From contig NZ_JADGRI010000011.1 in assembly GCF_017881085.1 (NCBI RefSeq), positions 1 to 35,247 on the forward strand: a DNA stretch of 35,247 bases. The letters are read 5' to 3'. Source of the DNA: Bradyrhizobium sp. (GTDB lineage: Bacteria; Pseudomonadota; Alphaproteobacteria; Rhizobiales; Xanthobacteraceae). Both the position numbers and the translations under genes were made by a program. Under the pieces are notes generated by a model that was not told where the DNA came from, made no database searches, and saw only the letters and a program-made list of their open reading frames with translations. Positions 6,818-30,726 of the stretch are shown here, piece after piece; within the stretch, counting starts at the first letter, position 1; each line of letters starts with the position of its first letter.

Positions 6818-7189
6818 ATGACCATCACCATCTACGGCATCAAGAACTGCGACACCATGAAGAAGGCGCGCGCCTGGCTCGACAGCCACGGTGTCGCCTA
6901 TCATTTCCATGACTACAAGAGCGAAGGCATCGCCAAGGACAAGCTGAAAGCCTGGAGCGACGAGGTCGGCTGGGAAACCCTGCTCAACCGGGCCGGCACG
7001 ACCTTCCGCAAATTGCCCGACGGCGACAGAGAGGGCCTTAGCGTGGGCAAGGCGCTCGCCTTGATGCTGGCGCAACCCTCGATGATCAAGCGGCCGGTGC
7101 TCGACCTCGGCGGCAAATTGCTGGTCGGCTTCAAGCCGGAGCTTTATGCAAAGGAGGTCAAGCCGTCGGGCGCGACGCGGAAACGCTAG
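6818..7189 (+). CDS. ArsC/Spx-family reductase
   Basis: MTITIYGIKNCDTMKKARAWLDSHGVAYHFHDYKSEGI...LLNRAGTTFRKLPD...PSMIKRPVLDLGGKLLVGFKPELY. Confidence 0.88.
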   Translation: MTITIYGIKNCDTMKKARAWLDSHGVAYHFHDYKSEGIAKDKLKAWSDEVGWETLLNRAGTTFRKLPDGDREGLSVGKALALMLAQPSMIKRPVLDLGGKLLVGFKPELYAKEVKPSGATRKR

Positions 7190-7809
7190 CTCAGGTCGAT
7201 AATATCTTCCGACGCGCGGACATGCGTGGAACTGCGAACGATGTCCTGGTCGATGACAGCCCTGACGATGATCTGCGGTATGGCCCGGGGCCGCATTCCC
7301 ATCAGGTTACTGATCTTGAAGTGGCCATCGATGCTGATGGCCTTGTAGGACCCGACGATCTGCTCGACGCGGCCTGCGCTGCCGAACGGCAGCAGCAGGC
7401 GCTCATATTGGACGTCCTTGCCGTCCGGATCCTGCACCATGGATATCGAATAGGTCGGCCGCTTGCACGCGAGGCAGGTGCGGTACAGGGTCACGACGTG
7501 TTCGTATCGCTCGGGACCGATCGCGTCGTCGAGATAACGGTTGGTGAGCTTGCGGGGATCGAGGTGCTCGCTGCCATAGACCTTGGTCAGCGTTGCCCCC
7601 TCCTGGGTAATCAGGAACCGCGCCTCGTCGCCACGGCCCTCGACGACAAATCCCATCATGTCCGGAAGCTCGTCGGCGAGGCACTCCGGCCGGTAATCGG
7701 CGAGGTCAGGCAGGGGGCGTGGCTTGACCACCGTGCGCAGCCAGGTGTTGAGAAGATCGCGTTGTCGGATGGATCGGACAACCGAGGGATTGGCGCTCTC
7801 GAATCGCAT
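7186..7809 (-). CDS. PAS_5-like domain protein, copy 1
   Basis: MRFESANPSVVRSIRQRDLLNTWLR...LADELPDMMGFVVEG...YDLD-like core ...VQYERLLLPFGSAG; paralogous to the adjacent 7817..8449 gene. Confidence 0.7.
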   Translation of the reverse strand: MRFESANPSVVRSIRQRDLLNTWLRTVVKPRPLPDLADYRPECLADELPDMMGFVVEGRGDEARFLITQEGATLTKVYGSEHLDPRKLTNRYLDDAIGPERYEHVVTLYRTCLACKRPTYSISMVQDPDGKDVQYERLLLPFGSAGRVEQIVGSYKAISIDGHFKISNLMGMRPRAIPQIIVRAVIDQDIVRSSTHVRASEDIIDLS

Positions 7810-7816
7810 TCGCGTG

Positions 7817-8449
7817 CTAGCCGAATTCGATCAGGTCGCCGGAGGGAATGCGGCCGGGGGCGCGGTGGAAGAGGTCGCGGTCGATCACGCTGCGAAGTTT
7901 TGGCGTCGGCAGCGCGTCGTTTCCCCGCATCAGGTTCTTGATCTCGAAACCGCCGTCCTCGCTGATGGTCTTCAACGAGGCGATCAAATGGCTGACGCCG
8001 CCGCCTTCCGAGAACGGCAGCAGCAGCCGCTCATATGCGACGATCCGTCCGTAGAGGTCGTCGATGCTGGAGATGGTGTAGACGGGCAAGCAGCTAGCGA
8101 CGCATTTATAGTAGACCGGCATTACCACGGGCACGAGTCTCGCTCCGATATAGTCGTCGAGATATTTGCCCTTGCCGGTGTTGCCGTAGGCGTTCGACAT
8201 TCGCGTGCCGTCGCTCTGGATCGTCAGGCGCGGGGGCTGCTCGGCGGTATCGACGGTGTAATAGACGAGATCCGCGAGCTCATCGGCGAGGCGCTCGGGA
8301 TGGTATTCCTCGACGCGCGGCAATTTCTGCTCGCGGGAGTAGAGCCGCAGCCAGGTGTTCAACAGGTCCCGCTGCTTGATCGACTTAACGACCGACGGGT
8401 TGGCGCTCTCGAAATCCACCGCTGCGATCCGTTCCCAATACCAAGACAA
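7817..8449 (-). CDS. PAS_5-like domain protein, copy 2
   Basis: FESANPSVVKSIKQRDLLNTWLR...ERLADELADLVYYTVD...VAYERLLLPFSEGGGVSHLIASLKTIS; tandem paralog of 7186..7809. Confidence 0.7.
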   Translation of the reverse strand: MSWYWERIAAVDFESANPSVVKSIKQRDLLNTWLRLYSREQKLPRVEEYHPERLADELADLVYYTVDTAEQPPRLTIQSDGTRMSNAYGNTGKGKYLDDYIGARLVPVVMPVYYKCVASCLPVYTISSIDDLYGRIVAYERLLLPFSEGGGVSHLIASLKTISEDGGFEIKNLMRGNDALPTPKLRSVIDRDLFHRAPGRIPSGDLIEFG

Positions 8450-25895: not shown

Positions 25896-26030
25896 CGGGC
25901 CGCCGCGCCACGAAATGGTTTCTGGAATCTTTGCGAGTCTTGGCTGTGGCGCGGCAGATTGCCATCCGCGCGGGCGCGTGGCTTAGTCTCTCGCCCGAAG
26001 CGAAGCCGCCGGCAAACCCGCGCGAAAATC

Positions 26031-27290
26031 ATGACCGAAGAGCCGCCAGCGGACACGATCGTGCCGCCATTGCCAGGCGCGCCGCGCCGCGGCGCGGTGG
26101 CGTTCATCTTCGTCACCATTCTGCTGGACATGTTCGCGCTCGGCCTGATCCTGCCGATCCTGCCCCAGCTGGTGGAAAGTTTCGTCGATAACGATACCGC
26201 GAGCGCGGCGCGGATTTTTGGATTGTTCGGCACCGCATGGGCGCTGATGCAGTTTCTGTTTTCTCCGATACTTGGCGGCCTGTCGGACCGGTTCGGCCGG
26301 CGGCCGGTGGTGCTGTTGTCTAATTTCGGCCTCGCGCTCGACTATGTGCTGATGGCGCTGGCGCCGTCCTTGACCTGGCTGTTCATCGGCCGGCTGATTT
26401 CGGGCATCACCTCGGCCAGCGTCTCCACCGCCTTCGCCTACATCGCGGACCTGACCCCGCCGCAGCAGCGCGCGGCGACGTTCGGCAAGATCGGCGTGGC
26501 GTTCGGCGCCGGATTCATTTTAGGACCGGCGGTCGGCGGGCTGCTCGGCGGCATGGATCCGCGGCTGCCGTTCTGGGTTGCCGCCGCCCTGAGCTTTGCC
26601 AACACCCTCTATGGCCTGCTGATCCTGCCGGAGTCGCTGCCGAAAGATCGCCGTTCGCCGTTCCATTGGAAGAGCGCCAATCCGCTGGGAGCTTTGCGTC
26701 TGCTGGGCTCCGACCGCGTGCTCGCGGGGCTGTCGGTGGTGAACTTCCTGGCCCAGGTCGCACATGTCGTGCTGCCCTCGACCTTCGTACTTTACGCAAC
26801 TTATCGCTACGGCTGGGATGCGACCACCGTCGGCCTGACGCTGGCCTTGGTCGGCGTCTGCTCGATGGCCGTGCAGGGGCTGGCGATCGGACCGATCGTC
26901 AGGCGCCTCGGCGAACGCCAGGCTCTCTTGCTGGGCCTCGGCTCCGGCGTTGCCGGTTTTTTGATCTACGGCGCGGCGCCGACCGGTCCGCTGTTCTGGA
27001 TCGGCATTCCCGTGATGTCGCTGTGGGGCGTGGCGGGCGCGGCAACCCAGGCGCTGACGACGCAGCTGGTCGCCCCGGACCAGCAGGGCCAGCTGCAGGG
27101 CGCGACGTCGAGCGTGCAGAGCGTGTCGCAGATGCTCGGACCGTTCCTGTTCACGCTGACCTTCGCCTATTTCATCGGCGCCCGGGCGCCGCTGAAATTG
27201 CCGGGCGCGCCGTTCCTGCTGGCATCGGCGCTGTTGCTGCTGGCGCTTCTGCTTGCGGTTCGCACGCTGGCGAAGGCGCGGGAACATTAG
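26031..27290 (+). CDS. MFS transporter, TetA/TCR-like
   Basis: ATG at 26031; FIFVTILLDMFALGLILPILPQLVESF...SPILGGLSDRFGRRPVVLLSNFGLALDYVLMALAPSLTWLFIGRLISGITSAS. Confidence 0.9.
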   Translation: MTEEPPADTIVPPLPGAPRRGAVAFIFVTILLDMFALGLILPILPQLVESFVDNDTASAARIFGLFGTAWALMQFLFSPILGGLSDRFGRRPVVLLSNFGLALDYVLMALAPSLTWLFIGRLISGITSASVSTAFAYIADLTPPQQRAATFGKIGVAFGAGFILGPAVGGLLGGMDPRLPFWVAAALSFANTLYGLLILPESLPKDRRSPFHWKSANPLGALRLLGSDRVLAGLSVVNFLAQVAHVVLPSTFVLYATYRYGWDATTVGLTLALVGVCSMAVQGLAIGPIVRRLGERQALLLGLGSGVAGFLIYGAAPTGPLFWIGIPVMSLWGVAGAATQALTTQLVAPDQQGQLQGATSSVQSVSQMLGPFLFTLTFAYFIGARAPLKLPGAPFLLASALLLLALLLAVRTLAKAREH

Positions 27291-27308
27291 CCCGGCGCAG
27301 GGGCCCGA

Positions 27309-28904
27309 TCACGGCGCAAGCAGCTGACGGAAGCCCGAGTCCAGCCGCGCGTCGGCGCTTCTGATGTTGCCCCGGGCGGTGTCCATCCAGGTCTTGTCGG
27401 CATCCAGTGTCTTTAGCGCTTGATCGAGTTGGCGCGCAACTTCGGCGGGTTGCGGCCCGCCGATGCCCACGCGGGTCTTCACCATGAACTCCGGCGACAG
27501 CACCTGCCGGAATTCGGTCTCATCCATCGGCAGCTTCGCGTCGGGAAGCTGCAAGGCATGGATGGCATCGGCGTACAATTCCACCGCCTTGGCATAGGGG
27601 AAAGTCTTCGGCTTGAAGCCGTTGGCCCGCGCGAAAGTCACGATGGAAGAGGCGAAGCCGTGGCCAACGCGAAAGGGAATGTGATGTTCCTTCTGCAGGG
27701 TTTCGGCCAGTTCCATCGAGGTCGTCCAGTCGTCCTCGAGCTCCTCGAGCGAACGCTGCGGATTGACCGTGAGCGCGTCCAGAACGATGTCGAAATCCCC
27801 GATCATGTTGACGGCGTGTGCGAACAGGCCGATCTCCGCCCACGACGCCTTATAGTCGGTCATTCCCGTGGTCACGTTGTGCGCGCGGAGCGTCACCGTG
27901 TCGGCCAGCCCGACGACGTCAGAGGCTTCTTCGCGCGCGCGCATGATGACGCCGGGATTGCGCTTCTGCGGCATCGCGCTGCTGGTATAGGTCGAGGCCT
28001 CGTCGAGCAGAAGCCAGGGCCGCGTCTGGTGATATTGCGTGTGGATGTCGTTCAGCACGGCGCCGAGACGGATCGCGTTGGACGAGACGATCGCTGCCGC
28101 CTCGAGCGCAATGTCGGACGGGCTGATCTGGCCAGCGTCGATGGAATTTTCGATGATTCCATCGAAGCCGAGCAGGTCGGCCATGCGTTTGCGGTTCAGC
28201 GGCCAGATCGAATTGGCAAGAACGGCAGTGCCCATCGCGCAGCGATTGAGCCGCTTGTAGAGTTCGTGAATACGCTCTGCGTCGCGCGCAAACGAGGCTT
28301 CATAGCCCAACAGATAATCCGCATAGCTGGTGGGCTGCGCCTGCACGCCGTTGGTATAGGCGGGCACGATCGTATTGACGTTCTTCGCCGCGACGGCCAG
28401 CACGCGCGCGCGCATTCCGTTCAGGGCGTCGGAGAAATCGAGCAGTTGGTTGCGGAGCTTCGCCATCCGGTAGGTGGCGTACATATCCTGGCGGCTTCTG
28501 CCGGTATGAATGAAGGAAGCGTCGGGACCGATTGAATCGGCGATGATCTTTTCGATCTGCAGGACGTCGCCCGGCCGCTTGCCATTGGGTTTTCCCGCCT
28601 GCTCGATCGTGGAATTGACGCCGGTCGCGAGTTTTCGCCCAAGGTCGGGAGCAACGATCTTTTCCTCGACCAGCATGACGGCCGAGGCGCGGTTGATCTT
28701 GTTGAGCCAGTAGAATTGATCTTCCGCCTGATCCGTCTTGCTGGTCACCGACGCGTCGAGAACCACGGGCGCAGCGCCCACCTTGGCGGCCTGCTGGTTG
28801 CATTCGGCCGTCGTCGCGCAGGGTAATTGGCCGGTGTCCGCCGCCCTGGCTGTCCCTGCGAGGCAGGTCATCCCGAGCATCAGACCGGTGATTATCGACT
28901 TCAT
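27309..28904 (-). CDS. Exported argininosuccinate-lyase-like (fumarase/aspartase superfamily) protein
   Basis: Signal peptide MKSIITGLMLGMTCLAGTARAAD; HTGRSRQDMYAT; superfamily loop TSSAMPQKRNPG; YTNGVQAQPTSYADYLLGYEASFARDAERI region. Confidence 0.85.
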   Translation of the reverse strand: MKSIITGLMLGMTCLAGTARAADTGQLPCATTAECNQQAAKVGAAPVVLDASVTSKTDQAEDQFYWLNKINRASAVMLVEEKIVAPDLGRKLATGVNSTIEQAGKPNGKRPGDVLQIEKIIADSIGPDASFIHTGRSRQDMYATYRMAKLRNQLLDFSDALNGMRARVLAVAAKNVNTIVPAYTNGVQAQPTSYADYLLGYEASFARDAERIHELYKRLNRCAMGTAVLANSIWPLNRKRMADLLGFDGIIENSIDAGQISPSDIALEAAAIVSSNAIRLGAVLNDIHTQYHQTRPWLLLDEASTYTSSAMPQKRNPGVIMRAREEASDVVGLADTVTLRAHNVTTGMTDYKASWAEIGLFAHAVNMIGDFDIVLDALTVNPQRSLEELEDDWTTSMELAETLQKEHHIPFRVGHGFASSIVTFARANGFKPKTFPYAKAVELYADAIHALQLPDAKLPMDETEFRQVLSPEFMVKTRVGIGGPQPAEVARQLDQALKTLDADKTWMDTARGNIRSADARLDSGFRQLLAP

Positions 28905-29338
28905 GATGTTTCCTCATTTCCGGCTTCGGGCTCGATACGCGCGGACCGAATTGGCGCAGATTGTTTTTGCCGGGTGGGCGCTGGCGCCGGAGCCAATCTG
29001 ATCGACGGCCGTCAATTTGACAATCGCCGGGGCCGCCGCCGGCGCGCGCGAACGGAGGCGGGGATTCCGGCCTGCGGCGATTTGCTTCTTCCCCTCGGCA
29101 GGGGGCTGAGCAGAAATTTCGATCTGCTCGGCCGGCGAGACGGATGGCTGTTCGGCCCGGCACGGGATCCAACGGCCGACGCAAAGAGGAGCGAGAGGCG
29201 CGGCGATTTCGACCGGGCGAAACGATCGAATACAGTACGTGAAACGCCCCTTGGTCGTTCTCCAAGCTGGCTTCAGAGCCTCTGATCGAAGTCTGGTTGC
29301 CTTGCCGGTTTTCCCGGGCGGTCGGTTCTGACGTGCAA

Positions 29339-29366
29339 CCGGCCGGATTCTTGCGAATCCGGCCGG
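29339..29366 (-). terminator. Perfect 12-bp hairpin downstream of the binding-protein gene (no T-tract)
   Basis: CCGGCCGGATTC-TTGC-GAATCCGGCCGG; no T-tract on the minus strand, so it may be an attenuator or mRNA-stability hairpin instead. Confidence 0.45.
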
Positions 29367-29378
29367 ATGCGGGGTCTG

Positions 29379-30605
29379 TTACTTCTTCACCAGCGGGCAG
29401 TCGCTCGCCTCGAGCGGTTTGGCGGCGTCTTCCGGCGAGATCGTGGCGATCAGCTTGTAATAGTCCCACGGATACTTCGATTCTTCCGGCTTCTTTACCT
29501 CGAACAGATAGGCCGGAATGATGCGGCGGCCGTCGGCCCGCAGCGGGCCCTTACCGAACAAGGGATCGTCGGTCGGCAGTTCCTTCATCTTGGCGACGAC
29601 CTTGGCGCCGTCATGCGGATTGCCGCCGAGCGCTTCCATGGCCTTGAGATAGTGCAGCACCATGGCGTAGTTGCCGGCCTGGGTCATCGACGGCATCGAG
29701 TTCTTGTTCGCCAACGCGGAGAAGCGCTTCGACCAGGCGCGGGTCGAGTCGTTCTGGTCCCAGTAGAAGGATTCGGTGAACGTCAGGCCGTGCGCGGTCT
29801 TCAGGCCGAGCGAGTGCACGTCGTTGATGAACAGCAACAGCGCGGCGAGCTTCTGGCCGCCCTCGACGATGCCGAATTCGGCGGCCTGTTTGATCGAGTT
29901 GGTGGTGTCGCCGCCGGCATTGGCGAGGCCAACCACCTTCGCCTTCGAGGCCTGCGCCTGCAGCAGGAACGACGAGAAGTCCGACGAATTGATCGGATGC
30001 TTGACGCCGCCCAGCACCTTGCCGCCATTGGCGGTGACCACCGCGGTGGTGTCGCGCTCGAGCGCTGCGCCGAACGCATAATCGGCGGTCAGAAAGAACC
30101 ACGTGTCGCCGCCGGCCTTGGTCAGCGCCTTTCCGGTGCCGTTGGCGAGCATGTAGGTATCGTAGGTGAACGAGACCGTGTTCGGCGTGCAGGCCTTGCC
30201 GGTGAGGTCGGCGCTGGCGGCGCCGGAGTTGAGCAGCACCGCGTTCTTTTCCTTGACGAGGTTGCTCACGGCCAGTGCGACGCCGGAATTCGGCGTGTCG
30301 GCGATCGCATCGACCTTGTCATTGTCGATCCATTGCCGGGCGATGTTGACGCCGACATCGGGCTTGTTCTGGTGATCGCCGCTCACGACGTCGATCTTCC
30401 AGCCCTTCTTGGTAAGGCCGGAATCCTCGACCGCCATCTTGATCGCGACCACCGAATTGGGACCGCCGATATCGGCGTACAGGCTCGACATGTCGTTGAG
30501 CACGCCGATCTTGACCGTCTTGTCCTGGGCAAGGGCCGGTGCGGCGAGCGAAAGCCCGGCGCAGGCGAGAAGCACGGCGGTGCGCCGCGCGAGTGTCGTG
30601 TTCAT
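29379..30605 (-). CDS. ABC transporter substrate-binding protein, LivK/HAAT type
   Basis: ATG at 30605 behind GGAGGATTCCTTA; signal peptide MNTTLARRTAVLLACAGLSLAAPALAQ; KTVKIGVLNDMSSLYADIGGPNSVVAIKMAVEDSG. Confidence 0.92.
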   Translation of the reverse strand: MNTTLARRTAVLLACAGLSLAAPALAQDKTVKIGVLNDMSSLYADIGGPNSVVAIKMAVEDSGLTKKGWKIDVVSGDHQNKPDVGVNIARQWIDNDKVDAIADTPNSGVALAVSNLVKEKNAVLLNSGAASADLTGKACTPNTVSFTYDTYMLANGTGKALTKAGGDTWFFLTADYAFGAALERDTTAVVTANGGKVLGGVKHPINSSDFSSFLLQAQASKAKVVGLANAGGDTTNSIKQAAEFGIVEGGQKLAALLLFINDVHSLGLKTAHGLTFTESFYWDQNDSTRAWSKRFSALANKNSMPSMTQAGNYAMVLHYLKAMEALGGNPHDGAKVVAKMKELPTDDPLFGKGPLRADGRRIIPAYLFEVKKPEESKYPWDYYKLIATISPEDAAKPLEASDCPLVKK

Positions 30606-30726
30606 TAAGGAATCCTCCAAATCTGAAATGGGGCGGGCTCTCTTGCCGGAGCCTTGTATGGTCAGGTTCGATCGAACGAACGATCTGCCCTCCCGATAGA
30701 CGTTCTCGGGCTCTGCTGCAATGCGT

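Follow-up and report, generated by a model that had tools for sequence, protein, structure and literature searches.

Does the gene at 27309-28904 encode an exported enzyme of the argininosuccinate lyase (ASL) fold that dispenses with the catalytic His and, if so, on which class of compound would it act? A first-pass annotation of the window (the whole 35,247-nucleotide stretch of Bradyrhizobium sp. DNA analysed here) had described a signal peptide, an intact Ser loop and an Asn in place of the ASL His, and had proposed a different substrate, a different chemistry or a non-catalytic role. The open reading frame lies on the minus strand, with its ATG at 28904 and its stop at 27309, and codes for a product containing the motifs HTGRSRQDMYAT, VPAYTNGVQAQP and TSSAMPQKRNPG. 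This product passes the curated cut-off of Pfam Lyase_1 (79.2 bits vs 27), the domain of the aspartase/fumarase superfamily, to which C-S, C-O and nitro lyases also belong and whose usual form is a homotetramer with active sites built from three subunits. Its best NCBIfam match is TIGR00838 argH, with 197.4 bits, below the equivalog cut-off of 279.5, and it scores 22.5 bits against the NtrsucLyaStm model. An AlphaFold2 monomer model, built from the window protein and database-locus homologues, has the superfamily fold. A Foldseek search with this model returned EDDS lyase 6g3e as the best match (E 9e-29), followed by ASL/delta-crystallin. EDDS lyase, a C-N lyase forming fumarate, is also the closest solved sequence (E 1e-44, about 27% identity). 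The dN/dS ratio between the window lyase and its nearest relative (L001) is 0.15, and the gene is under purifying selection. The features discussed below are collected in Table 1.

Table 1. Positions of the lyase gene, its sequence features and its flanks in the window.
Feature	Position	Strand	Evidence
Exported ASL-fold lyase CDS, 531 aa (P0001)	27309..28904	-	Pfam Lyase_1 79 bits; AF2 pLDDT 88.4, pTM 0.86
Sec-type signal peptide, residues 1-21, predicted cleavage between ARA and ADTG	28842..28904	-	by eye and simple rule
Cys29...Cys35 pair (CATTAEC) just after the signal peptide	28800..28820	-	alignment
Ser137-Arg138-Gln139-Asp140; SRND in ASL and EDDS lyase, so substrate-contacting Asn replaced by Gln	28485..28496	-	alignment
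Asn185 (AAC), aligned with the catalytic His of ASL and Gln159 of EDDS lyase	28350..28352	-	codon reading, alignment
Catalytic SS loop SSAMPQKRN, residues 308-316 (Ser308/309, Lys314, Asn316 kept)	27957..27983	-	alignment
Met321 (ATG) at the site of the ASL His-paired Glu (NPDxxE; EDDS lyase E293)	27942..27944	-	alignment
MFS transporter converging on the lyase gene; other genus-conserved flank of the insertion	25959..27290	+	congener loci
Branched-chain-amino-acid-type periplasmic binding protein (Peripla_BP_6), upstream of the lyase gene	29379..30620	-	Pfam, congener loci
Lyase-bearing segment of ~2.1 kb; empty site in six congeners	27274..29378		congener loci
Inverted repeat of 16 nt (94% complementary, loop of 4 nt) directly behind the binding-protein gene	29335..29370		repeat search

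By reading the codon of residue 185, AAC, as the reverse complement of GTT at 28350-28352, we could place an Asn exactly where the first-pass annotation had put it. The lyase YTN-GVQAQP aligns unambiguously with the ASL YTH-LQRAQP. The Ser loop is intact as claimed, with the signature TSSAMPQKRN in which S308, S309, K314 and N316 are invariant, and Arg138 and Thr184 are kept as well. Aligned with EDDS lyase, the window lyase retains all seven of S111, R112, T158, S280, S281, K286 and N288, whereas N113 is changed to Gln139, Q159 to Asn185, D290 to Gly318 and E293 to Met321; the counterpart of Y320 is ambiguous, as two alignments give either Met348 or Ala353. The general acid/base position is thus altered on both sides of the pair, with Asn185 for His and Met321 for Glu, and the replacement of Asn by Gln139 and of Asp by Gly318 could mean that the substrate does not belong to the succinates. 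Among the residues newly fixed in the clade of Asn-bearing proteins (Asn clade) are Tyr306, directly before the SS loop, Lys352 and Arg146, and it is a matter of speculation that one of these has taken over as general acid. A compensating His elsewhere was looked for and rejected: the Asn clade has gained no conserved His relative to its His-type sister, and His342 is common to both. At residue 196 (28317-28319), the window copy alone has Asp where nearly all relatives including ASLs have His (AHYLL to ADYLL).

How far such a change departs from known enzymes can be judged from two studies. In a 2025 engineering paper, R112, N113, Q159, N288, D290 and Y320 of EDDS lyase were treated as substrate-near, and the Q159C and Q159M variants were active (PMC12363623); therefore, the site tunes specificity and is not essential. 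According to a 2026 paper, ASL, AspB, ADSL and FumC have a His-Glu charge-relay pair with a proposed part in leaving-group protonation, and the pair is absent from the active enzyme CreD (PMC13411527). The altered His site is therefore real in the window lyase, as the first-pass annotation held, but less unusual than it had seemed, given that EDDS lyase (Q159) and CreD (Leu170) are both active without the His. The loss of the Glu, the Gln139 in place of the SRND Asn, the comparison with a His-less EDDS lyase and the ordinary argH found in the same genome (see below) all go beyond that annotation.

The key columns were then read from an alignment that comprised EDDS lyase and 114 further sequences. 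Wherever position 185 is His (67 proteins), the ASL Glu (NPDxxE) is retained, and none of the 46 Asn185-type proteins has it, the partner being Met in 22, Asn in 19, Val in 4 and Ile in 1. The same combination of Asn with a non-Glu partner was found in 22/22 loci gathered after this rule had been formed, which are relatives and not independent events. EDDS lyase combines Gln with Glu. In a tree computed without the columns of the trait itself, the Asn proteins are monophyletic with the window protein inside (UFBoot 99 / SH-aLRT 96), their sister is a His+Glu clade with which they have SRQD in common (99/97), and EDDS lyase forms a long branch outside. Since the Asn proteins form one clade, the His to Asn change arose once. 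On this tree, the co-variation of His and Glu is one evolutionary event, widely inherited, rather than many parallel ones, in which the His and its Glu partner were replaced together, as a unit, on a single branch. The invariance that followed this single event shows constraint: with Asn in 46/46 and 22/22 clade members and a dN/dS of 0.15, Asn185 is not due to chance. The sister clade (L113-L124 and L076) reads YTHGVQAQP and LEQL, is cytoplasmic and is annotated in the manner of argininosuccinate lyase; we found no characterised member of it.

A scan of species genomes recovered 17 orthologues at 60-78% identity, mostly from Alcaligenaceae and betaproteobacterial bins with one bin labelled Chloroflexi, together with more distant relatives. 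Among Bradyrhizobium congeners, three have a clade lyase (about 58% identity) and one more has a His-type relative. In Paracoccus, Caballeronia, Cupriavidus and Agrobacterium, another exported subgroup (42-47% identity) is located on plasmids and second replicons; it is also present in Burkholderiales genomes. A clade member or a close His-type relative was found in 48/151 sampled genomes of the Alcaligenaceae group and in 33/300 of the Burkholderiales group; Advenella species are among the carriers of clade members.

The N-terminus of the window lyase, MKSIITGLMLGMTCLAGTARA followed by ADTG, is a Sec-type signal; Tat export was ruled out, the signal having no twin-Arg. Using our own rule-based screen rather than SignalP, we called a signal peptide in 41/46 Asn proteins, the window lyase included, compared to 1/13 His-type sister proteins, where the call comes from an upstream open frame that is not the likely start, and 0/54 ASL-type proteins. 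One of these 41 calls, that of L019, is false and stems from an upstream start. On the negative side, L074 has an obvious hydrophobic signal but an n-region without Lys/Arg, L017 has its signal peptide and a CKTTDEC motif in an upstream frame, and L018, L100 and L112 appear to lack a signal peptide. The L017 gene (4929-6519, Pelistega indica) is split in two frames, by a frameshift or an assembly error. The signal peptide reported earlier is hence present in the window lyase and clade-wide, and nearly all members of the clade are predicted to be exported. Within the subgroup of the window lyase, 22 clade members have Cys at both residues 29 and 35, a pair that could plausibly form a periplasmic disulfide. 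In the periplasm of Achromobacter xylosoxidans, three ‘argininosuccinate lyase’ proteins with predicted Tat signals (A0A0D6FWL1, A0A0D6I447 and A0A0D6IQY6) were reported, which are candidate clade members at most (PMC11533796). The first-pass annotation knew of no characterised exported member, and neither did we find a biochemically characterised exported enzyme of this kind in the open-access literature. The group is best placed as a real, conserved lyase clade within the aspartase/fumarase superfamily, with predicted export and an unusual active site.

The lyase is the sole gene in the ~2.1 kb between the MFS and binding-protein genes, and in six congeners these two genes lie roughly 100 bases apart without it. 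Its closest relative is found in a Comamonadaceae bin (79%, vs 58% in congeners). Because the flanks adjoin without the lyase in six congeners, the gene is best read as an insertion between two genus-conserved genes, probably acquired horizontally; a search for insertion sequences and flanking repeats gave none. The empty site between the MFS and binding-protein genes of congeners (L179, L181) has an inverted repeat, GGGTGGGTTAGCC..., that resembles a dispersed repetitive element. In the window, the inverted repeat behind the binding-protein gene is a possible stem-loop that could separate the binding-protein transcript from the lyase. An operon of lyase and binding protein was ruled out as functional evidence, given that congeners keep the binding-protein gene beside the MFS gene without a lyase: the gene pre-dates the lyase here and its adjacency tells nothing of a joint function. 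In Paracoccus (L080), a binding protein 52% identical to this one stands beside the lyase. An ordinary ArgH, with THLQ and NPDAAE, is encoded elsewhere in the assembly as a fragment cut by a contig end, and the lyase copy is therefore freed from arginine synthesis. Further along the window, two adjacent paralogous minus-strand ORFs (7186-7809 and 7817-8449) both contain ...FESANPSVV.SI.QRDLLNTWLR....

Across the clade, solute-import genes (TctC-type receptor, porin, TRAP receptor, binding protein, DcuC) adjoin the lyase in 12/32 dereplicated lineages compared to 9/129 background genes of the same loci (Fisher p 5e-5), an association that is suggestive only, as the neighbours were known before the families were picked and the lineages are related. 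Sutterella-type relatives (L018 3418-6306, L019 4827-6451 and L136 4228-7161, the locus of L112) adjoin a DcuC C4-dicarboxylate carrier gene, and their signal peptide has apparently been lost. Other neighbours include genes for malate synthase G, an amidohydrolase, an MR/MLE enolase, a tautomerase, an amidase and porins, and a homospermidine-synthase-like gene. Reading the substrate from these genes was ruled out, since neighbourhoods vary and no partner is constant.

Taking these observations together, the window lyase is probably a Sec-exported beta-eliminating lyase acting on a succinyl compound, which would likely release fumarate or an analogue for uptake. The altered general-acid position makes the different substrate or chemistry proposed at the outset probable, and the loss of the His-Glu pair speaks for a periplasmic enzyme that has taken on a new substrate and against a broken one; by homology, N-substituted aspartates or aminopolycarboxylates would be the leading substrate class. 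The same fold in the same location could also serve another chemistry in place of a C-N elimination that yields fumarate, for example C-S cleavage of a thiosuccinate, C-O elimination or elimination from a non-succinate diacid, which we regard as distinctly less likely. The leaving-group machinery and the contacts equivalent to Asn113 and Asp290 have all changed, and the superfamily has C-S, C-O and nitro lyases, CreD among them working with Leu170 and no His (PMC13411527). Moreover, Advenella species carry clade members, and the ‘putative argininosuccinate lyase’ MIM_c16970 of Advenella mimigardefordensis was 6.4-fold up on mercaptosuccinate vs succinate (PMC5373536). However, MIM_c16970 is only a candidate member, its clade assignment having been dropped when no further paper carrying the tag was found; the induced protein could be the ordinary ArgH of that species, and the nearest characterised relative of the window lyase is a C-N lyase.

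A protein that has lost catalysis and works in the periplasm in binding or sensing, handing a dicarboxylate to a transporter, would fit the missing His-Glu relay, the predicted export and the import genes that are often adjacent. Yet a pseudoenzyme would not need the SS-loop Ser, Lys and Asn and most carboxylate-pocket residues, which are invariant clade-wide and kept under purifying selection, and EDDS lyase shows the His to be dispensable; the non-catalytic role entertained at first is therefore unlikely. It is highly improbable that the protein is a true, divergent or mis-started, cytoplasmic argininosuccinate lyase of the arginine pathway: argH (TIGR00838) is its best NCBIfam match with 197 bits, but the cut-off of 279.5 is missed, both dyad residues are gone, the signal peptide is clade-wide and a canonical argH fragment (THLQ, NPDAAE) lies in the same genome. 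We give equally little credence to a decaying, horizontally acquired copy without function in this strain, which the single-gene insertion and the unique His196 to Asp change might suggest, as the frame is intact, dN/dS is 0.15 and every clade signature residue is kept.

For the favoured exported lyase, catalysis could proceed as follows. The protein would assemble as the usual homotetramer, and the SS-loop serine would abstract the beta-proton of the succinyl-type substrate, with Lys314 and Asn316 stabilising the aci-carboxylate. The leaving group would then be expelled without protonation by a His, either because it is a good leaving group or because water, Tyr306 or the substrate itself donates the proton. 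This would free an amine (or thiol) in the periplasm along with fumarate or one of its close analogues, and the product might be taken up by binding-protein-dependent carriers. More tentatively, the clade may represent the first dedicated periplasmic group of the superfamily, in which export was gained and the leaving-group relay replaced in one event; its members would degrade environmental succinyl compounds such as aminopolycarboxylates, metallophores or thiosuccinates by a general-acid solution unseen before. Because clade proteins are common and are annotated ‘argininosuccinate lyase’, the entire group is probably misnamed and assigned to the wrong compartment. The natural His-Glu swap beside a His-keeping sister makes the need for leaving-group protonation in the superfamily directly testable, and new C-N or C-S lyases for use in biocatalysis might come from the clade.

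The closest known systems each share a part of these features. ASL/delta-crystallin (ArgH) has the fold, the SS loop and the HTGRSR and YT...AQP motifs in common with the window lyase, but has the His-Glu pair and SRND and no signal peptide, in place of Asn185 with Met321, SRQD and a signal peptide. The cytoplasmic YTHGVQAQP clade shares SRQD and GVQAQP but keeps His and Glu (LEQL) and has no signal peptide. The nitrosuccinate lyase CreD is likewise active without a general-acid His, with Leu170 where the window lyase has Asn185 (PMC13411527), although this superfamily member is not close in sequence and is not known as exported. Finally, EDDS lyase of Chelativorans sp. BNC1 (PDB 6g3d-6g3i, 6rx8) resembles the window lyase in combining the SS loop with a dyad position devoid of His (Gln159), but keeps Asn113, Asp290 and Glu293 where the window lyase has Gln139, Gly318 and Met321.
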